Positions 14,061-23,925 of a stretch of DNA of 64,000 nucleotides are shown piece after piece. The stretch lies in NCBI GenBank assembly GCA_016873115.1, contig VGYB01000005.1, positions 1-64,000 of the forward strand, given 5' to 3'. Source of the DNA: Planctomycetota bacterium (GTDB lineage Bacteria; Planctomycetota; Phycisphaerae; Phycisphaerales; SM1A02). The position numbers and the translations under genes were made by a program. Every line of letters starts with the position of its first letter. Position 1 is the stretch's first letter. The notes under the pieces are model-generated. The model saw only the letters and a list, made by a program, of their open reading frames with translations, did no database searches and had not been told where the DNA came from.

Positions 14061-14090
14061 CTGCAGTTCGTTCGGACCGTCGTGGCGATC

Positions 14091-14096
14091 TATACT
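14091..14096 (+). promoter_or_regulatory. Possible -10 element (TATACT) for hppD
   Basis: TATACT is near the sigma-70 consensus and ends six bases before the hppD ATG at 14103. A poor -35 (TTCGTT at 14067-14072, 18-base spacer) is possible. This is one of the clearest cases of the leaderless-type arrangement. Confidence 0.5.
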
Positions 14097-14102
14097 CGTG
14101 CA

Positions 14103-15305
14103 ATGAGCAGCCTCTCCACCACCCCGACCGCCAAAGACCTTTCCTCGACCGATCCCCTGATGCTGGTCGATGTCGACCATGTCCGGTTCTATGTCGGCAA
14201 CGCCAAGCAGTCGGCCTTCTTCTACGCCAGCGCGTTCGGCTTCCAGGTCGATCAGGTGTCGGACCTGACCACCGGCAGTCGGACAACCGCCCAGTACCTG
14301 CTCACCCAGGGCAACATCCGATTCATCCTGGAAACGGCCCTGACCAGCGACCACCCGGTGGCCGAGGAGTGCCGCCGGTATGGGGACGGCGTGAAGGATG
14401 TGGCCCTGACCGTGCTCGATGCGGAGCGCGCCTGGGAGCAGGCCCGGCGCAACGGCGGCGAGAGCGCCTACGAACCGCGCACGGTCAGCGACGCCAACGG
14501 GAGCGTCACCATGGCCGGCATCAAGACCTACGGCCGTGCCGTCCACAGTTTCGTCAGCCGCACCGGTGCCTACGCGCTTCCCAACATCAAGCAAGGTGCG
14601 ACCTTCGCCCCGGACTTCCGGTCCATGGGGAACATCAGCCTGAACGCCTGGAACAAGGCCAACCCCTGTGGCCTCAAGTTCGTCGACCACTGCGTGGGCA
14701 ATGTCGAGTTGGGCAAGATGAACCATTGGGTCAAGTGGTACGAGGATGTCTTGGGCTTCACGATGTTCAAGCACTTCGACGACAAGGACATCTCGACCGA
14801 GTACTCGGCGCTCATGAGCAAGGTGATGGCCAGCGGCAACCACCTGATCAAGATGCCGATCAACGAGCCCGCCGCCGGCAAGAAGAAGAGCCAGATCCAG
14901 GAGTACCTGGAGTGGCACGGCATGTGCGCAGGCGTGCAGCACCTGGCACTGCGCACCGATGACGAGCTTCACAGCGTGGCCGAGCTGCGCCGCCGCGGCG
15001 TCGACTTCCTGGCCCTGCCTGATGCGTACTACGAGAGCGTCTGGAACCGCGTCGACACGATGCTCCGCCAGCACGGCCACGATGTCGTGAAGGAAGACCA
15101 CCAGAAGGTCAAGGACCTGGGCATCCTGGTCGATGCCGATGACGAGGGCTACCTGCTGCAACTCTTCACGAAGCCGCTGCAGGACCGCCCCACGCTCTTC
15201 TTCGAGATCATCTGCCGTCGCGGTTCGCAGAGCTTCGGCAAGGGCAACTTCAAGGCGCTCTTCGAGGCGCTCGAGATCGAGCAGGACCGCCGCGGCAACC
15301 TGTGA
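14103..15305 (+). CDS. hppD: 4-hydroxyphenylpyruvate dioxygenase
   Basis: The 400-residue Fe(II) enzyme converts 4-hydroxyphenylpyruvate to homogentisate in tyrosine breakdown. Two vicinal-oxygen-chelate halves are visible. The three metal ligands are recognisable as H196 (FVDHCVGNVE), H280 (GVQHLALRT) and E368 (FFEIICR). The C-terminal helix GNFKALFEALEIEQ matches the gating helix of the family. The start at 14103 follows TATACT by six bases, and an upstream in-frame ATG at 14082 is unlikely. hmgA and fahA, the following steps, lie 0.8 and 2.8 kb to the right. Confidence 0.96.
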   Translation: MSSLSTTPTAKDLSSTDPLMLVDVDHVRFYVGNAKQSAFFYASAFGFQVDQVSDLTTGSRTTAQYLLTQGNIRFILETALTSDHPVAEECRRYGDGVKDVALTVLDAERAWEQARRNGGESAYEPRTVSDANGSVTMAGIKTYGRAVHSFVSRTGAYALPNIKQGATFAPDFRSMGNISLNAWNKANPCGLKFVDHCVGNVELGKMNHWVKWYEDVLGFTMFKHFDDKDISTEYSALMSKVMASGNHLIKMPINEPAAGKKKSQIQEYLEWHGMCAGVQHLALRTDDELHSVAELRRRGVDFLALPDAYYESVWNRVDTMLRQHGHDVVKEDHQKVKDLGILVDADDEGYLLQLFTKPLQDRPTLFFEIICRRGSQSFGKGNFKALFEALEIEQDRRGNL

Positions 15306-16083: not shown

Positions 16084-17400
16084 ATGGCCTACTACACCAA
16101 GATGGGCAAGTTGCCCGGCAAGCGCCACATCCAGTTCCGCGCCCCCAACGGCCGCCTGTACAGCGAGGAAGTCTTCGGCACCGAGGGTTTCACGGGGCCG
16201 ACCAGCACCCTCTACCACATCAATGCGCCGACGCAGGTCTGCGGCTGGGAACCCCTGTACGACGCGCGCCCCGAGTATGTGGAGCAGAACGTGATGCGCA
16301 TGCGTCACACGCGAAGCAGCCCGATGCAACCCCAGGGCGATCCGATCACCGGCCGAGTGATCCTCTACGGCAATGCCGATGTCGAGATGGGCGTCTGCGT
16401 CCCGGCCGACGGGATGGACTACCACTACAAGAGCGTCTTCGACGACTGCCTCTTCGTGCACCACGGCCGAGGCACGCTCTACACGATGTTCGGTGCGATC
16501 CCCTTCGGTCCCAAGGACTACCTCGTCATCCCCAAGGGCACGATCTATCGACTCGTCTTCGAGAAGCCCAAGGCCAGCGAACCTGCGAACAGGTTCGTCT
16601 TCATGGAGGCCGTCAACGGCAGCCTGATCCTTCCCCCGCCGCGCTACCTGAGCAAGAAGGGCTCGCAGTTCCTGGAGCATGCGCCCTACTGCGAACGCGA
16701 TCTGCGGCTGCCGCAACTGCCGATGACCTTCGATGAACGGGGCGAATTCGAGGTGCGCATCAAGAGCCGCGGCTGGGTGCACAGCTACACCTACCAGTAC
16801 CACCCGCTCGACATCGTCGGCTGGGACGGCTGCGTCTATCCCTATGCCTTCAACATCGATGACTTCAGCCCCATCGTCGGCAAGCACCACATGCCGCCGC
16901 CGACGCACCAGACCTTCGAGGCGCACAACTTCGTGATCTGCTCGTTCTGCCCGCGGCCGCTGGACTTCCATCCGCAGGCGATCGTCGTCCCCTACAACCA
17001 CTCGAACCTCGACTCGGACGAGGTGCTCTACTACGTCGAGGGCAACTACAAGGCCCGTCGCGGCATCGAGAGCGGCTCGCTCACCCTGCATCCGCAGGGC
17101 ATTCCGCACGGCCCGCATCCTGGAACGGTCGAGGCCACGATCGGCCTGACCCACACCAACGAGCTCGCCGTGATGTGCGACACCTTCCGTCCACTCATGG
17201 CCACGCGAGCCGCAGTCGAGCTCGACGAACCCCGCTACCCGGCCTCGTGGGAAGAGGGTGCCATGACGGCCAGCAGCAAGGTGCGTACACCCAAGGCAGC
17301 CAAGGCGACAGGCGAACCCAAGGCCGCGAAACCCGCCGGCAAGGGCAAGCCAGCCCGCCGCACGCCAGCGCGCACTGCGGCCGCGAACACCTGGGACTGA
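16084..17400 (+). CDS. hmgA: Homogentisate 1,2-dioxygenase
   Basis: The 438-residue cupin enzyme opens the ring of homogentisate to maleylacetoacetate. Conserved stretches include AYYTKMGKLPGKRHIQFR, FHxxN-type cupin residues, KDYLVIPKGTIYRL, and the metal-binding region around HHMPPPTHQTFEAHNFVICS and PYNHSNLDSDEVLYYVEG (ferrous His/Glu ligands). Residues from about 394 form an unusual Lys/Ala/Pro-rich basic tail (KVRTPKAAKATGEPKAAKP and on) that is not part of the dioxygenase fold. It follows hppD in the pathway. The start matches the family N-terminus, and the upstream extension of the frame is rejected. Confidence 0.95.
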   Translation: MAYYTKMGKLPGKRHIQFRAPNGRLYSEEVFGTEGFTGPTSTLYHINAPTQVCGWEPLYDARPEYVEQNVMRMRHTRSSPMQPQGDPITGRVILYGNADVEMGVCVPADGMDYHYKSVFDDCLFVHHGRGTLYTMFGAIPFGPKDYLVIPKGTIYRLVFEKPKASEPANRFVFMEAVNGSLILPPPRYLSKKGSQFLEHAPYCERDLRLPQLPMTFDERGEFEVRIKSRGWVHSYTYQYHPLDIVGWDGCVYPYAFNIDDFSPIVGKHHMPPPTHQTFEAHNFVICSFCPRPLDFHPQAIVVPYNHSNLDSDEVLYYVEGNYKARRGIESGSLTLHPQGIPHGPHPGTVEATIGLTHTNELAVMCDTFRPLMATRAAVELDEPRYPASWEEGAMTASSKVRTPKAAKATGEPKAAKPAGKGKPARRTPARTAAANTWD

Positions 17401-17405
17401 CGGTC

Positions 17406-18104
17406 ATGGACGCACCCTTGCTCGCGGCGACCGGGGTGATGGGCCTTGTCGCCTTGGTCGCTGTTGGCGCGTCGCCACTGTCGACGACGGAGCGGCATCC
17501 CACCCAGGATCAGCCGAAGCAAGCGCCAACCAGAGCTCCCGCGACTGCGCCGGCGGCTGGCGACGCTCCGCCCGCCGCGGTGCCGGTCTGCCCGGCCCCG
17601 CCAGCCGATGACGATCCCCTGCCCACGCAGATCCCCAACCTCAGCGATGCCGGTCTGCCGGTGGTGCGGCTCACCTTGGGAAGCGAGCCATTCGATCTCG
17701 AACTGGCGGCAACCGACGACGCGATCGCCAAGGGGCTCTCGGGTCGTGATCGTGTGCGCCGCCACCGCGGCATGCTGTTCGTCATGCCCTACTCGCGCGA
17801 ACAGGGCTTCTGGATGATCGACTGCCTCGTGCCCATCGATATCGCGTTCATGAACGAGCAAGGGGTCGTGACCGCGGTGCACACCATGAAGACCGAGCCG
17901 CCGCAGCGCGCGGATGAATCGCGTGGCGCGTACGAAGTCAGGCTGCCGCGCTATCCGAGCGGCGCCAAGGCCCGCTACGCGATCGAGCTCGCCGCTGGCG
18001 AGTTCGCGCGCCTTGGCATCGCCAAGGGCAGCGAGATCAAGGTCGACTGGCAGGCCGTGAACACCGTGGCTCGCGCCACGCGCGTGGCCGGCTCGAAGCG
18101 CTGA
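17406..18104 (+). CDS. Exported DUF192 protein
   Basis: The 232-residue protein has an N-terminal hydrophobic stretch (LLAATGVMGLVALVAVGA), a Pro/Ala-rich linker to about residue 75, then a DUF192 domain. Landmarks are GLSGRDRVRRHRGMLFVMPY, FWMIDCLVPIDIAFMNEQGV and VTAVHTMKTEPP. The biochemical function of DUF192 is not established. The gene begins five bases after the hmgA stop and is probably co-transcribed with it. It ends ten bases from the convergent fahA end. Confidence 0.82.
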   Translation: MDAPLLAATGVMGLVALVAVGASPLSTTERHPTQDQPKQAPTRAPATAPAAGDAPPAAVPVCPAPPADDDPLPTQIPNLSDAGLPVVRLTLGSEPFDLELAATDDAIAKGLSGRDRVRRHRGMLFVMPYSREQGFWMIDCLVPIDIAFMNEQGVVTAVHTMKTEPPQRADESRGAYEVRLPRYPSGAKARYAIELAAGEFARLGIAKGSEIKVDWQAVNTVARATRVAGSKR

Positions 18105-18114
18105 GCACCGCCCC

Positions 18115-19422
18115 TCACGCCACAGGCAGCACGATCCCGCGGCACTCCCCGAAACTGAGCCGGGGCAGACCATCGCGAACGGCCGAGCCGCGCAGGATGA
18201 CTTCGTCCCCGTCCTGCAGGAACTTCCGTTCGGTGCCATCGGGAAGCGTGATCGGCTTGGTCCCGCGCCGGGTGAGCTCGAGCAGGCAACCGTGCTCATC
18301 CTCGCCCGCACCGCTGATCGTGCCACTGCCAAGGAGATCACCCGGGCGCATGCGGCAGCCGCTCACCGTGTGGTGAGCGAGCATCTGGTTCATGCTCCAC
18401 CACAGGTCGGTGCCACGACTGCGGCTGACGACCATCGCGGGCACACCGCGTTCGCGCATCGCCGCGCTGGAGATCGCGACCTCAAACCGCACATCAAGCA
18501 GGAAGTCGCCATCCCACCGCAGGTACTCCAGTGGCTGCGGATCGCCCTCCCCGCGTGCCGGAACCGGTATGCGGTACGGAGCCAGCGCCTCCGCAGTGAC
18601 GATCCACGGACTGATCGATGTGATGAAGTTCTTGGCCGTGAACGGGCCGAGCGGCTGGTACTCCCATTTCTGCAGGTCACGCGCGCTCCAGTCGTTCAGG
18701 AGGACATGACCGAAGATGCGCTGGGCGGACTCAGCCACGCTGAGCCGCTGGCCGATCTCGTTGGCCTGCCCGCCCACGATCGCACCGAGCTCGAGTTCAT
18801 AGTCGAGCAACCGGCAGGCCGTGAACGACGGCGGGCCATCGTCCGCCTGGACGGTCTGTCCCATCGGACGCCGCACCGCAGCACCGCTGGCCACGACCGT
18901 GCTCGCACGCCCGTGATAGCCGACGGGAAGGTGCTTCCAGTTCGGCATGAGCGGATTCGTCGGGCGGAACATCGAACCCACATTGGTCGCGTGATGGATC
19001 GAGGCGTAGAAGTCGGTGTAGTCGCCGATCTCGCACGGCAGTCGCATCGTGACGCCCCACGCCGGCAGCAACGCTTCCTTGGCGACCGCTGCATCAGAGA
19101 GTTCACTGCACGATGCACTGAGCAATCGCTGGAGCTCGGCGCGTGCCGCGGCCCACGCCGACTGGCCGAGGCTGAGATAGTCATTGAGCGCGGGCTTGGC
19201 CAGCGCATCCTGGATCCGGCGGTCGAGCCGCGCGAGCACCCCCGACTCCACACAGCGATGGAGGTCGAGAAGGCTGTCACCGATCCGTACGCCCAGGCGC
19301 GCGCCGCGCCCCTCGCCGCTCCAGGCACCCATCGGCAGGTTGGCGAGACCGAAGCCCTCGCTCTTGCCCTCGCCGCCGACGGTCCTGGCGCCTCCAACCC
19401 ACGATGTTCCCGCTGCAGTCAT
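18115..19422 (-). CDS. fahA: Fumarylacetoacetase
   Basis: The 435-residue hydrolase cleaves fumarylacetoacetate to fumarate and acetoacetate, the last step of tyrosine catabolism. Metal and catalytic residues of the family are visible: D137 and the catalytic H144 in DYTDFYASIHHATNVGSMFR, the Glu pair in LDYELELGAIVGG, and NDWSARDLQKWEYQPLGPF. The start at 19422 overlaps the stop of the upstream unknown gene by four bases (ATGA). Maleylacetoacetate isomerase, which should precede this step, is not recognised in the window. Confidence 0.95.
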   Translation of the reverse strand: MTAAGTSWVGGARTVGGEGKSEGFGLANLPMGAWSGEGRGARLGVRIGDSLLDLHRCVESGVLARLDRRIQDALAKPALNDYLSLGQSAWAAARAELQRLLSASCSELSDAAVAKEALLPAWGVTMRLPCEIGDYTDFYASIHHATNVGSMFRPTNPLMPNWKHLPVGYHGRASTVVASGAAVRRPMGQTVQADDGPPSFTACRLLDYELELGAIVGGQANEIGQRLSVAESAQRIFGHVLLNDWSARDLQKWEYQPLGPFTAKNFITSISPWIVTAEALAPYRIPVPARGEGDPQPLEYLRWDGDFLLDVRFEVAISSAAMRERGVPAMVVSRSRGTDLWWSMNQMLAHHTVSGCRMRPGDLLGSGTISGAGEDEHGCLLELTRRGTKPITLPDGTERKFLQDGDEVILRGSAVRDGLPRLSFGECRGIVLPVA

Positions 19423-20348
19423 GCGCACTCCTCCTTGCTGACCAGCCCCATGGACAGGAGATCCTCCAGTGGTTCGTCGTAGCTGCACGAGCCGAAGCTG
19501 TGCATGAGCTGGGTGCGCGCGGCATCTGCCTGCGCGGCCGTGATGCGATGGCCATCCCATGAGATGGCCTGCGCATCGACGGTGAAGGCACCATGCCGCT
19601 CATCGGCAAGGAGCCGCTCGAGCCCCCCGCGATCGATCACACCCGCATGCATCATGCACGAACCCACGATGACATTCATGAAGCCATGCTGCGTGCAACC
19701 GATGGCTGGCACCTCGTGACGCAGCGCCCGGTGCAGGCCGGCGGTTGCCTTGAAGGGGACGCGGCCCCGGGCACAGGCTTCGATGAAGGCAGCCACCTGG
19801 CTGATGGACGGATGCGCCGCTGCAACGGTGCCGCCGGTGCGGATCTTCGCACCGAAGCCCTCTTCGGCGACGGCGATGAGCAGCCCACGGACATCGCGAT
19901 CGACCGGGAACTCCCAGTACGTGAAGCACTCCGGCAGCACCTCGATGGCGCGCTCGATCTCGTCGGCGCTCGCCGCCTTCACCTCGAGGCAGTCCACGCG
20001 CATCGCGGGCTCGCCCGGTGAGGCGTGGCGATCGTTGAAGGTCTCGACCGCCGCGAGTGCTGCCATGAAGTCATCCCACTGGGCAATCGGTGGCGTGACG
20101 GCGGAGACCGCCCAGGCACCCTCGGTGCGCGGGAGCTCGGCGATGGGCGCGTGGCCCTTGGCGAGCGAGCCAAGCGCCCCGAGCCGACCCGTCGGCCACA
20201 CGAGCCGTGCACCGATCCACGCAGCACCACCCCCCAGGAGGCGCGCATGCATCGAGACCACCGTGGGCTCATCGAGCGACGCGGGTGGATAGAGCCCCGC
20301 GTAGTCGATCGATTCACCAAGGAGCGCGTGCAGCGTGGAGTTGATCAT
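19419..20348 (-). CDS. Conserved-looking protein of unknown function coupled to fahA
   Basis: The 309-residue soluble protein has no signal peptide. The sequence alternates predicted strands and helices and contains motif-like stretches: SIDYAGLYPPASLDEPTVV, YWEFPVDRD, FGAKIRTGGT, and FKATAGLHRALRHE followed by GFMNVIV. This could be a TIM-barrel-like fold, but no family can be named with confidence. Its stop overlaps the fahA start (ATGA), so the two are translationally coupled. That suggests a role with fumarylacetoacetase or the missing isomerase step. The ATG at 20348 lies seven bases after the lipoprotein gene of the Mla operon. Confidence 0.8.
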   Translation of the reverse strand: MINSTLHALLGESIDYAGLYPPASLDEPTVVSMHARLLGGGAAWIGARLVWPTGRLGALGSLAKGHAPIAELPRTEGAWAVSAVTPPIAQWDDFMAALAAVETFNDRHASPGEPAMRVDCLEVKAASADEIERAIEVLPECFTYWEFPVDRDVRGLLIAVAEEGFGAKIRTGGTVAAAHPSISQVAAFIEACARGRVPFKATAGLHRALRHEVPAIGCTQHGFMNVIVGSCMMHAGVIDRGGLERLLADERHGAFTVDAQAISWDGHRITAAQADAARTQLMHSFGSCSYDEPLEDLLSMGLVSKEECA

Positions 20349-20355
20349 GCGACGC

Positions 20356-21030
20356 TCAGGGCTTGACGAGCGCATCGGCCGGGACCGCACGCAGGTCGCG
20401 CACAAGATCCCGCAAGCACTGTCCGTAGGCATCGGAGAGCCCCTTGACCACGCTTGCTGCATCGTCCTTCTCGATCGGGAACCCGTGCTCGTAGAACCAC
20501 TCCATCACGATGCGTGGCTCATCGACGGTGCGCTGCATGAGGAGTGCCTGCATCGCGACGCGCGCGACGCCGGAACGGTCCGCCGCAAAGCAAGCGCCGA
20601 AGGAGCGCATGTTGCTCACCAGGATCAGTTGGTCCGAGCCATACAGCCCAGCGAGCGTCACGGAGTTCGCCACCTTGGCCCGGGAGAGCACATCGACCAT
20701 CTGGGCCTGCAGGAGTTGGTCCAGCGGCATGACCCACCCGTTGTAGATGTCGGCACGCGCTTCGCCATTGGCCTGCTGGTAGACCAGCGTGTCAGAGTTC
20801 CACGGAGCCGCAGGGCGCGGTCGGGCCACCCCAAGTGCGGCAAGCGTGGGAGGACCTTCGGCGGCCGGGATCGACATCGACACATCGATGGTCCACTGCG
20901 TGGCACCGGGCCGAGGTGCCAGGAGCGAACAGCCGCCAAGCGACAGGATGACGGCCGTGATGCCCACGACCGCACGGCTCAGGAAGCCCATCATGGTGCT
21001 GGATCGGGCGCGAGGGGTGAAGCGTGTCAT
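20356..21030 (-). CDS. ABC transport auxiliary lipoprotein (PqiC/DUF330-like)
   Basis: The 224-residue protein has a lipoprotein signal near residues 20-34 (VGITAVILSLGGCSLLAPRPG, lipobox LGGC). The C-terminal region resembles the auxiliary lipoproteins found beside MCE-domain transporters. It is assigned partly from context: it follows MlaE, MlaF and MlaD homologues and overlaps the MlaD gene by four bases. It is probably the outer-envelope partner of the lipid transporter. Confidence 0.7.
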   Translation of the reverse strand: MTRFTPRARSSTMMGFLSRAVVGITAVILSLGGCSLLAPRPGATQWTIDVSMSIPAAEGPPTLAALGVARPRPAAPWNSDTLVYQQANGEARADIYNGWVMPLDQLLQAQMVDVLSRAKVANSVTLAGLYGSDQLILVSNMRSFGACFAADRSGVARVAMQALLMQRTVDEPRIVMEWFYEHGFPIEKDDAASVVKGLSDAYGQCLRDLVRDLRAVPADALVKP

Positions 21031-21992
21031 GGGTTGGTGCTCCTGAAGGAATTCGATGGGGAATTGGCGGGTTCGGGAGGCGCAAAGAGCGTGGAGCCCG
21101 CATCGCGCTCAAGTTGGTTCGCGAGGCGCTCGAAGCTGCGGGCGGCGGACGTGAGTTCCTCGATGAGCGCACCGATCCGGGGCTCCCCACGGGCCACCGC
21201 GCCCTCGAGGCGGCGTGCGAGCAAGCGGATGTCCTCGGCGGCCTTCCGGAAGGAAGCGACCGTCTCGGGCAGCTCCTTCATGGTGGACTTGAAGTCCCCG
21301 CTCTGGAGGAAGGCCCGGATCTCGTCACTGGTGTCGGAGATGCTGGCCAAGGTGCGGTGGAGGTCCGTCTTGATGGTGGTGTCGGCGGTGTCGATGAGCT
21401 CACCGATGCGTACACCGAGCCCCGCAAAGTCGATGCGGCTGATCTTGGCGACCGCAGCCTGGATCGAGTCGACCATTTCCTCGAACTTGCTGGATGTACT
21501 GGCGATCGCCACGACATTGTCCCTCATCATGTCATCAGGCGGCATCGAGAGCAGCGACTGGTCCTTCTCGTTCAGGATCTCGATGTACGGCAGCCCGGTC
21601 AGCCCCGCCGTGGCTACACGCGCGCACAAGCCATGGTTGCGGCCGAGGGAGAACTCGTGGCGGACCTCGTCACTCGACTGGCCATCGGGTACGAAGATGT
21701 CCATGCTCACGATGACATTGCGGTTGAACTCGCCTGCCTTGGATTCGCCCTCGTCATAGACGAACCTTCCCTCGGGGAACCCGACATCCGTCACCTTGCC
21801 GATGGTCACGCCGAGGTAGCGCACCGGTGTGCCGGGCGCCACACCGGTGACCGCGCTGGTGAAGTATGACCTGATCGGTATCGTGGTCTGGAACATGGCC
21901 CGGCTCGTCGTGATCAGCGTGCCTGCAATGATGGCCACAAGGCCTGCGAGTACGAAGATCCCAGCCTTGTAGGCGTGCTTGTTGCTGCTCAT
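21027..21992 (-). CDS. mlaD: MCE-domain lipid transport protein (MlaD-like)
   Basis: The 321-residue protein has an N-terminal anchor (AGIFVLAGLVAIIAGTLITT), then an MCE domain (VTGVAPGTPVRYLGVTIGKV near residues 46-65) and a long helical C-terminal region with SMEEL-like heptads. The family forms hexameric rings that carry phospholipids across the periplasm. It overlaps mlaF and the auxiliary lipoprotein gene by four bases each. Confidence 0.9.
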   Translation of the reverse strand: MSSNKHAYKAGIFVLAGLVAIIAGTLITTSRAMFQTTIPIRSYFTSAVTGVAPGTPVRYLGVTIGKVTDVGFPEGRFVYDEGESKAGEFNRNVIVSMDIFVPDGQSSDEVRHEFSLGRNHGLCARVATAGLTGLPYIEILNEKDQSLLSMPPDDMMRDNVVAIASTSSKFEEMVDSIQAAVAKISRIDFAGLGVRIGELIDTADTTIKTDLHRTLASISDTSDEIRAFLQSGDFKSTMKELPETVASFRKAAEDIRLLARRLEGAVARGEPRIGALIEELTSAARSFERLANQLERDAGSTLFAPPEPANSPSNSFRSTNP

Positions 21993-22780
21993 GATGCTGC
22001 TCCTTGGAGAGTCTGGTCCTCGGGTTGGCGTGCCAGGAACCGCCGAACATCCGTCGGGCCGGACTCCAGCAGTTCCTTGGGCGTGCCGATCGCCAACTGG
22101 GTCTTGTTCTCGCCACCGAGCACGACCATGCGGTCGGCGATGGTGAAGATGCTGGGGAGTTCGTGGGTGACGACCACGAAGGTCCGCCCCGTCGAACGCG
22201 CCAGGCGTACGACCATCTGGTCGAACTCGGCGCTGCTGATGGGATCCAGGCCCGCGCTGGGCTCGTCAAGGAAGACGATCTTGGGGTTCATCGCCAGCGC
22301 ACGCGCCACCGCCGCACGCTTCTGCATGCCGCCTGAGAGCGCACTGGGCATCTTGTTGCAATGCTCGTCAAGATCGACCATGGCCAGGAGGGAGAGTGCC
22401 AGCGAGTTCATCTCGTTCATCGTGTACAGCCCGTTCTCCTCCATCGCCAGCCGCACATTCTCCAGCACCGTCAGGCCGCCGAAGAGCGCACCCCCCTGAT
22501 ACATGACACCGATCGAATGGCGTACAGATTCGACCACGGCCTCGCCGCCAGTGACCAGCTCATGCCCTGCGATCCGGAGCGTGCCATCGATCGGTGGCAG
22601 CAGCGTGATCATGGCCTTCATCAGGGTGCTCTTGCCGCATCCCGAGCCGCCGCCGATCACGAAGACCTCGCCGGACGCCACCGTGAAGTTGATGCCGGTC
22701 AGGACGGGGATTCCCTCGTAGCCGACTGACAGGTCCTTGGCCTCGATCACGGTCTCGGTGGATCTCGCGGTGGACAGCAT
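21989..22780 (-). CDS. mlaF: Lipid transporter ATP-binding protein (MlaF-like)
   Basis: The 263-residue ATPase has Walker A GGGSGCGKST, signature LSGGMQKRAAVARAL, Walker B IVFLDEPSAGLDP and switch VTHEL. The SGGMxKR form of the signature is typical of the Mla/MCE importer group. It lies between mlaE (three-base gap) and mlaD (four-base overlap). Confidence 0.94.
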   Translation of the reverse strand: MLSTARSTETVIEAKDLSVGYEGIPVLTGINFTVASGEVFVIGGGSGCGKSTLMKAMITLLPPIDGTLRIAGHELVTGGEAVVESVRHSIGVMYQGGALFGGLTVLENVRLAMEENGLYTMNEMNSLALSLLAMVDLDEHCNKMPSALSGGMQKRAAVARALAMNPKIVFLDEPSAGLDPISSAEFDQMVVRLARSTGRTFVVVTHELPSIFTIADRMVVLGGENKTQLAIGTPKELLESGPTDVRRFLARQPEDQTLQGAAS

Positions 22781-22783
22781 GGC

Positions 22784-23887
22784 TCAGATCCCAAGCGTGT
22801 GGAAGAGACCCACGAGCACGCCATCGAGCACGATGATGGCCACGATGCCCGCCACGACCGCTCGGGTGGTGCTGGCACCGACGGCACCCGGGCCGACCTG
22901 GGTCTTCAGGCCGGATCGGCAGCCGATGCCACCGATGACGACCGCGAAGACGAAGGCCTTGAAGACCCCCTGCAGGAAGTCGACCTGGTCGATCGAGCTG
23001 CGGACATTCTGCAGGTAGAGCTCGAGGCTCATGCCGCGAGCGGCCATCGGAAGCCATCCCCCGAGCACGCCGGCGAATGAGGCGAAGACCGAAAGCAGCG
23101 GTGTGGTGATCGCCACCGCCAGGACACGGGGAGTCACGAGGTAGCGCTCAGGATTGAGCCCCATCGTGGTCAGCGCGTTGACTTCCTCGGTGACCTTCAT
23201 GGTGCCGATCTCCGCGGCGAAGGCACTGCCGGAGCGGCCTGCAAGGATGATCGCCGTGACGAGCGGCCCGAGTTCCCGGATGATCGCGAAGCCCATGATG
23301 GTGGGAGTCTGGTCCGCGGCACCGTAGCGGTCGAGCGCGGGCATCATCTGGTACGCAATGATGAACCCCACGATTCCGCTGAGCATGCAGGTCACGGGCA
23401 TCGAATCGATGCCCGACTGGCCCATCACACGCAGGAGATCGCGCCATCGCAGCGATCGGGGATGCCCGATCGCGTGGACCAGGTCAATCGCCGCCTCACC
23501 GATGAAGCGCACGGTGTCCGCCAGCTCATGAAGCAACCGGAAAGCCGTTTCCCCCACATCGCTGACGAATGTGGAGTCCTTCACGCGCGCGGTGGGCGGC
23601 TTGTGCCCGACGGCGCGCTCGACCAACGAAGCCTGATCGGCCGTCAGTCCACGCATCTCGATCTTCCCACCTGCCCACACCACCGTCCGGCGGATCTCAG
23701 CCAGGAGCAGGAGCCCGCTCCCGCTGACCGTCTGCAGCTTGGAGGCATCCACCACGACCGAGCCCGATCCTGCCGCGCGGGCGCGCCCCACCAGATCTTC
23801 CCAGGCATCGCGGACGCGCCCATCGTCGAGTGCGCCCTCCAGGGCGATCACGGTCGTACCGGTGGTGCTCTCCATGTCGGGGGACAT
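22784..23887 (-). CDS. mlaE: MlaE-family permease with N-terminal STAS domain
   Basis: The product has 367 residues from the ATG at 23887. Residues 1 to about 100 form a STAS domain (VIALEGALDDGRV and SVVVDASKLQTVSGSGLLLL), equivalent to a fused MlaB. The remainder is an MlaE permease with several membrane segments and the conserved ELGPLVTAIILAGRSGSAFAAE stretch. It should pair with MlaF and MlaD to move phospholipids across the inner membrane. A GTG at 23914 is also in frame. The ATG is preferred because TACATT lies eight bases upstream of it. Confidence 0.92.
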   Translation of the reverse strand: MSPDMESTTGTTVIALEGALDDGRVRDAWEDLVGRARAAGSGSVVVDASKLQTVSGSGLLLLAEIRRTVVWAGGKIEMRGLTADQASLVERAVGHKPPTARVKDSTFVSDVGETAFRLLHELADTVRFIGEAAIDLVHAIGHPRSLRWRDLLRVMGQSGIDSMPVTCMLSGIVGFIIAYQMMPALDRYGAADQTPTIMGFAIIRELGPLVTAIILAGRSGSAFAAEIGTMKVTEEVNALTTMGLNPERYLVTPRVLAVAITTPLLSVFASFAGVLGGWLPMAARGMSLELYLQNVRSSIDQVDFLQGVFKAFVFAVVIGGIGCRSGLKTQVGPGAVGASTTRAVVAGIVAIIVLDGVLVGLFHTLGI

Positions 23888-23895
23888 CGAGTCGG

Positions 23896-23901
23896 AATGT
23901 A
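23896..23901 (-). promoter_or_regulatory. Possible -10 element (TACATT) for the Mla operon
   Basis: On minus, TACATT ends eight bases before the mlaE ATG at 23887. It lies inside the alternative longer reading from the GTG at 23914, which it argues against. Confidence 0.4.
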
Positions 23902-23925
23902 GCGGCTTGCGCACCCATGGTGGGT

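Follow-up and report, generated by a model that had tools for sequence, protein, structure and literature searches.

An unnamed protein family that accompanies long-type fumarylacetoacetase is a candidate glutathione-independent maleylacetoacetate isomerase

A 64,000-nucleotide stretch of DNA from a Planctomycetota bacterium of the SM1A02 lineage (contig VGYB01000005.1; the whole stretch is called the window below) carries three genes of tyrosine breakdown, hppD, hmgA and fahA. Directly upstream of fahA lies a gene for a 309-residue protein. We found that relatives of this protein are encoded together with hmgA and a fumarylacetoacetase in genomes where no match to MaiA, the glutathione-dependent maleylacetoacetate isomerase, passes the cut-off. 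To judge from sequence and distribution, the family is probably a maleylacetoacetate isomerase that is not homologous to MaiA, works without glutathione and uses a nucleophile of the protein itself. The reaction is already known, and the protein family is without a name in the libraries searched. In the open-licence literature we found nothing that names the family or assigns a gene to a glutathione-independent isomerase. An earlier reading of the window (the sequence-only reading) had guessed at a non-homologous isomerase; the distribution supports this guess, and the activity is what we infer from it.

Co-occurrence with long fumarylacetoacetase in Planctomycetota

The genome from which the window comes (2.36 Mb, 95.9% complete) holds no match to MaiA (TIGR01262, glutathione S-transferase (GST) zeta class), which bears out the earlier remark that the isomerase step is missing. 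To cover the phylum, 393 Planctomycetota genomes were sampled, with 90% completeness requested. The family was present in 70 of them and long fahA in 68, namely in 67 over the cut-off and in G383, where the gene is split over two contigs. Both genes occurred together in 68 genomes, fahA alone in none and the family alone in two (G419 and G346). MaiA passed the cut-off in none of the 393 genomes; weaker GST-like matches were obtained in 22, none of which was fahA-positive. The family gene immediately preceded fahA, in the same orientation and within 1 kb, in 49 of the 68 genomes. In the other 19 it lies away from fahA, so that the association is more than an inherited neighbourhood. Moreover, in each of the genome families f46, f64 and f72 some genomes have the two genes and others lack both, which suggests several separate events.

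A further sample consisted of the own genome and its relatives (101 genomes). In this set the family was matched at E <= 0.001 in 72 genomes, fahA in 73 (67 over the cut-off) and hmgA in 74, while maiA gave five weaker matches and none over the cut-off. Two of the family matches (G001 and G002) reached just 18 bits and were left out of the member count. G050 and G059 have fahA without the family, and in both fahA reaches the contig end where the family gene would sit; G073, G081 and G094 have weak fumarylacetoacetate hydrolase (FAH) matches only. Pieces of the family without fahA were seen in G045 and G047, which are incomplete (85% and 79%). The relatives with hmgA and no family were G001, G011, G031 (where hmgA reaches the contig end), G050, G059 and G081, and those with the family and no hmgA were G002 (weak match only), G007 and G018. 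The sequence-only reading had looked to a conventional maiA elsewhere, and to absence of the gene beside fahA in relatives, as signs against its guess; we found no maiA over the cut-off in the own genome or in either sample, and the family gene with fahA in every fahA-bearing genome of the phylum sample.

In G346, one of the two genomes with the family alone, the family gene, hppD, hmgA and a gene for a short fumarylacetoacetate (FAA) hydrolase (L090) together make up an operon. This stretch has 38.7% GC, the genome is listed with 6% contamination, and the operon may be of foreign origin.

Plasmids of other phyla

All family members from outside Planctomycetota come from plasmid records, 72,556 of which were searched. 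With one planctomycete member as query, this search returned 24 records. A second query added Tsukamurella, and a Mesorhizobium match (26% coverage) was removed because it spans annotated unrelated genes. The family member is located immediately upstream of fahA on all 24 records, which derive from Actinomycetota, Bacillota and one cyanobacterium; the hosts are Priestia, Streptomyces, Pseudonocardia, Rhodococcus, Tsukamurella, Nonomuraea and Kovacikia. The co-occurrence with fahA, proposed earlier as a check for genomes lacking maiA, is thus seen on plasmids beyond the phylum.

Nine of 12 inspected regions have hmgA, hppD or a gene for a cupin-domain protein close to the family gene (the cupin-domain gene in two of the nine). 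A frequent order is hmgA, family gene, fahA. Priestia has hppD, family gene, fahA, aminotransferase and hmgA, and in the cyanobacterium Kovacikia hppD and hmgA stand in opposite orientation. The first gene of two Rhodococcus regions is annotated only as a cupin-domain protein, and three Streptomyces regions have no hmgA close by. The annotated regions inspected list the family gene as "hypothetical protein". Pseudomonadota plasmids, by comparison, carry maiA no more than 2 kb from fahA in at least 21 cases. When eight family-bearing plasmid records were searched directly for maiA, seven gave no match; in that search the Sphingobium record, included as a control, scored 254.6 bits and the Paracoccus record only 20.3.

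Two forms of the pathway

The best FAH match was weak (42-73 bits) in 18 of the 393 genomes. The family is present in one of these 18 (G346), against 68 of 68 genomes with long fahA, a count that rests on the best FAH match of each genome. Among the other 17 weak-FAH genomes, 14 hold hmgA. We searched for hmgA in 80 of the 323 family-negative genomes, chosen for weak FAH or GST matches. The absence of the family from these 80 is by selection, from which the count of one in 18 is free, and the 18 of the 80 that hold hmgA, the 14 just named among them, do not represent a rate.

In ten of these 18 hmgA-bearing genomes a short FAA hydrolase lies beside hmgA, and nine of the hydrolases share 57-72% identity with the tenth, from G081, where the gene order is hppD, short hydrolase, hmgA. 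G154, G177 and G424 have a weak FAH match within about 5 kb of hmgA, and G368 has one on a different contig from hmgA. Within genus g255, G318 and G394 carry long fahA and the family, and G331, G424 and G434 carry hmgA without either. The short hydrolases beside hmgA form one subfamily (L118, L121, L122, L124-L128, L130 and L131; L107 is a longer stretch of the genome of L131). They belong to PF01557 and accompany HmgA in genomes that have neither the family nor long fahA and where no MaiA passes the cut-off. To judge by sequence they are possibly maleylacetoacetate hydrolases, which, acting on maleylacetoacetate directly, would need no isomerase. The G081 gene order resembles that of Bacillus anthracis BAS0226-0228 as given in PMC4457819.

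In this phylum the family therefore keeps to genomes with the long fumarylacetoacetase and is largely absent from those in which a short hydrolase may act on the cis compound itself. Since it follows long fahA and not hmgA, the pattern is as expected of an isomerase but not of a protein that assists HppD or HmgA. A general helper of the homogentisate pathway was ruled out by the hmgA-bearing genomes without the family.

Conserved residues and a proposed mechanism

Conservation was counted over 94 loci, which yielded 74 distinct sequences and, after a 102-residue fragment (L036) had been dropped, 73, many of them from close relatives. D15, A17, P21, P22, E146, K168, G173, K200 and R278 are kept in all 73 members. 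R170, H206, G286, C288 and S289 are kept in 72, the sole exception each time being the copy of G419 (L093, G419:C3). C288 is thereby the best conserved cysteine, followed by C192 (62 of 73). The G419 copy alone differs at R170, G172, T202, A203, G204, H206, G286, C288 and S289; it is without the motifs RTGG, ATAGLH and GSCS, and its genome has no fahA match. Read from its sequence, this decayed copy perhaps marks a loss of the pathway that is under way.

We propose that HmgA would open homogentisate to maleylacetoacetate (cis), that the 309-residue protein would convert this to fumarylacetoacetate (trans), and that FahA, supplied by coupled translation, would cleave the latter to fumarate and acetoacetate. 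In the MaiA mechanism the thiol of glutathione is added to the double bond and then removed from it. Isomerisation by the zeta class proceeds in the presence of glutathione, as stated in PMC10950700. In the family described here a built-in nucleophile would replace glutathione, with Cys288 as first choice and K168 or K200 as second. By the thiol route, Cys288 would add to the enedione, the resulting single bond would rotate and the thiol would depart. By the lysine route, an imine or enaminone between K168 or K200 and the beta-diketone would lower the double-bond order. The carboxylate and the enolate would be held in place by R170, R278 and H206. For the 309-residue protein, the substrate, the reaction, the nucleophile, the independence of small thiols and the coupled translation are all what we infer.

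A protein nucleophile is proposed because the own genome gave no match to glutathione synthetase (TIGR01380), the single enzyme of the glutathione route that was examined, and none to PF11716, the mycothiol-type isomerase domain. TIGR01380 passed the cut-off in three of 61 genomes, none of which has a fahA match, and PF11716 did so in seven of the 61, in one strongly (G083) and in most narrowly.

Sequence and structure searches

Scans of the 309-residue protein against Pfam and NCBIfam gave no family with an E-value of 1 or less, and its best match among Protein Data Bank (PDB) sequences had an E-value of 0.24 and indicated no family, in agreement with the earlier statement that the protein belongs to no recognised family. 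A profile of 28 members found no relative in the PDB. Pfam scans of the same 28 members hit three families, in one member each and with a best E-value of 0.053, which we regard as stray matches. Specifically, the Pfam and NCBIfam scans gave no match of the 309-residue protein to MaiA (TIGR01262), and neither this protein nor the 28 members matched PF11716 (the DinB-like domain of mycothiol-dependent maleylpyruvate isomerase, MDMPI), the fumarylacetoacetate hydrolase superfamily (PF01557) or, in Pfam, the maleate isomerase/Asp-Glu racemase superfamily, which has two catalytic cysteines. No relative was found in four viral-contig scans and a search of phage records, and a genome-contig scan returned only near relatives (87-88% identity). 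A chance open reading frame (ORF) was ruled out, since the sequence is conserved at 34-51% identity outside the genus. Residues of about 76-179 match another ORF (357-385 residues) of the same-genus genomes G001-G005, G007 and G008 at 18-20 bits, which may be due to chance.

Structure prediction with a fold search, as suggested by the sequence-only reading, did yield models and gave no reliable fold match. Two AlphaFold runs, with six sequences each that are 86-89% alike, resulted in poor models (predicted local distance difference test, pLDDT, 47.8 and 51.5; predicted template modelling score, pTM, 0.48 and 0.50) in which strands and helices alternate in part. Foldseek found no match at E <= 0.001 for either model, and VIA-align, which was applied to the second model, gave nothing over Z 4.8. 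Secondary structure based on residue propensities was too vague to use. Several conserved residues probably stand at the ends of likely strands, as in (beta/alpha)8 barrels; as the models are poor and have no structural match, they neither point to one of the known barrel families nor speak against any.

Gene arrangement in the window

The ORF of the 309-residue protein extends on the reverse strand from 20348 to 19422 and ends in a TGA at 19421-19419. The ATG of fahA occupies 19422-19420, and stop and start overlap as ATGA, as the sequence-only reading had noted (Table 1). Just 5' of this ATG, and within the upstream gene, lies the sequence AAGGAGG, which makes coupled translation of the two genes likely on sequence grounds. 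FahA is of the long, classical type (TIGR01266 cut-off 375.3 bits), and HppD likewise exceeds its cut-off (277 bits). HmgA reached 49.6 bits against TIGR01015 (cut-off 510.75), exceeds the cut-off of the Pfam family HgmA_N, and shares 44-52% identity with three annotated homogentisate dioxygenases. All three pathway genes named earlier are thus present, hppD and hmgA on the forward strand and the 309-residue gene and fahA on the reverse strand. The hmgA of the window represents a divergent bacterial subfamily that is common to Priestia, Actinomycetota and Kovacikia.

Table 1. Positions of the candidate isomerase gene, its proposed catalytic codons and the pathway genes in the window
Feature	Position	Strand	Basis
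Candidate glutathione-independent maleylacetoacetate isomerase, unnamed family, 309 residues	19419..20348	-	ORF; ATGA overlap; co-occurrence with fahA
fahA, long-type fumarylacetoacetase	18115..19422	-	TIGR01266, 519.7 bits; PF01557 and PF09298
hppD, 4-hydroxyphenylpyruvate dioxygenase	14082..15305	+	TIGR01263, 382 bits
hmgA, divergent homogentisate 1,2-dioxygenase, start set by alignment	16084..17400	+	PF20510; TIGR01015 below cut-off; alignment; profile match 16084-17256
K168 codon, AKxRTGG motif, K in 73/73 members	19845..19847	-	
K200 codon, FKATAGLH motif, K in 73/73 members	19749..19751	-	
C288 codon, GSCS motif, C in 72/73 members, proposed catalytic thiol	19485..19487	-	

A cluster for MlaE (with STAS domain), an ABC ATPase, MlaD (MCE) and an ABC auxiliary lipoprotein (20356-23914, reverse strand) ends seven bases upstream of the 309-residue gene, and lipid transport and tyrosine breakdown may share one transcript at this locus. 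Lipoprotein and MCE genes also precede the family gene in the same-genus loci L002-L004 and L006, and MCE matches are close to it in L007-L010. Between hmgA and fahA, the window encodes a DUF192 protein with an N-terminal extension (17397-18104, forward strand).

Discussion

Several observations weigh against an isomerase function of the family. Genomes of the phylum are related and not independent, so that the Fisher value of 1e-74 overstates the case for the association with fahA, and in 19 of the 68 genomes the two genes do not adjoin. The 18 family-negative genomes with hmgA have pathway genes without the family. Four of these, from family f10 (G361, G407, G425 and G429), have hmgA without long fahA, a nearby short hydrolase or the family, and the relative G011 (88% complete) breaks the pattern by having hmgA and neither fahA nor the family. 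Conversely, G346 combines the family with a short FAA hydrolase in a homogentisate operon. Among the inspected fahA regions of Pseudomonadota plasmids, three lack both maiA and the family in the neighbourhood, and on one of the plasmids concerned, W10, no maiA match anywhere passes the cut-off. TIGR01380 was matched in 28 of 61 genomes, in 25 of them below the cut-off. The Kovacikia plasmid has five GST-like matches, the best of 87 bits and below the maiA cut-off, and cyanobacteria make glutathione; a lack of glutathione is therefore no general condition for the presence of the family. Finally, the models are poor and gave no fold for the family.

Of the alternatives, the one that survives best, although we consider it unlikely, is an isomerase dependent on some small thiol in place of glutathione, such as bacillithiol, mycothiol or coenzyme A, in the way of MDMPI. 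The family occurs in phyla that, by general knowledge, differ in their thiols, and its conserved cysteine may have another role. That these lineages share one family with common motifs is, however, explained more simply without a thiol cofactor, and neither a sequence match to MDMPI_N nor a PF11716 match in the own genome was found. MDMPI itself catalyses a similar glutathione-free cis-trans isomerisation in the gentisate pathway, and differs from the present family in sequence and, as far as the reaction proposed here goes, in substrate.

Less probable still is an accessory protein of the long fumarylacetoacetase, serving in activation, assembly or channelling, with isomerisation being spontaneous or due to free thiols. 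The overlapping reading frames, and the fact that the family tracks long fahA rather than hmgA, would fit such a role. Yet the long fahA of Pseudomonadota stands beside maiA with no family gene nearby and so needs no such partner, the 19 genomes in which the gene is encoded elsewhere fit it poorly, and the invariant lysine, arginine and glutamate residues, together with the nearly invariant histidine and cysteine, look catalytic.

Slightly weaker again is the case for an enzyme of some other kind whose substrate is a pathway product or by-product, for instance a maleylacetoacetate hydrolase or a repair enzyme. Sequence alone does not reveal the reaction, and some Bacillus are reported to have maleylacetoacetate hydrolase activity (Crawford 1976, cited in PMC4457819). 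The operons of hmgA, family gene and fahA, however, want only an isomerase, and a maleylacetoacetate hydrolase, which would make the accompanying long FahA superfluous, was rejected since FahA of this type is nearly always present.

We thus favour a maleylacetoacetate isomerase with its own nucleophile. The family would catalyse the same reaction as MaiA (HmgC), which adjoins fahA on at least 21 Pseudomonadota plasmids, while differing from it in three respects: there is no sequence relation, with 309 residues against 214 for the MaiA of L079; the family occurs in genomes without a MaiA match over the cut-off; and glutathione synthetase gave no match in the own genome. With somewhat less assurance, at a little better than even, we extend this to a general glutathione-independent maleylacetoacetate isomerase of Planctomycetota, Actinomycetota, Bacillota and Cyanobacteriota that acts through a protein nucleophile and possibly has a fold new to cis-trans isomerisation.

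Hagedorn and co-workers (J Bacteriol, 1985) reportedly described a glutathione-independent maleylacetoacetate isomerase activity in gram-positive bacteria, for which we know of no gene. This activity concerns the same reaction without glutathione, and the family is present in operons of Priestia, Rhodococcus and Streptomyces; we propose that the two may be one and the same. If so, the family would supply a gene and mutable residues for that activity. For Bacillus anthracis, no maleylacetoacetate isomerase gene was identifiable and the fate of maleylacetoacetate was said to need more analysis, according to a 2015 study (PMC4457819). An isomerase of the present kind would close the gap named there, though that organism may use the hydrolase route. 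Within the single phylum Planctomycetota, our data suggest two routes around glutathione, namely the new isomerase with a long hydrolase, or a short hydrolase alone. If the proposal is true, annotation pipelines could complete the breakdown of tyrosine, phenylalanine and homogentisate where these proteins are now listed as hypothetical.

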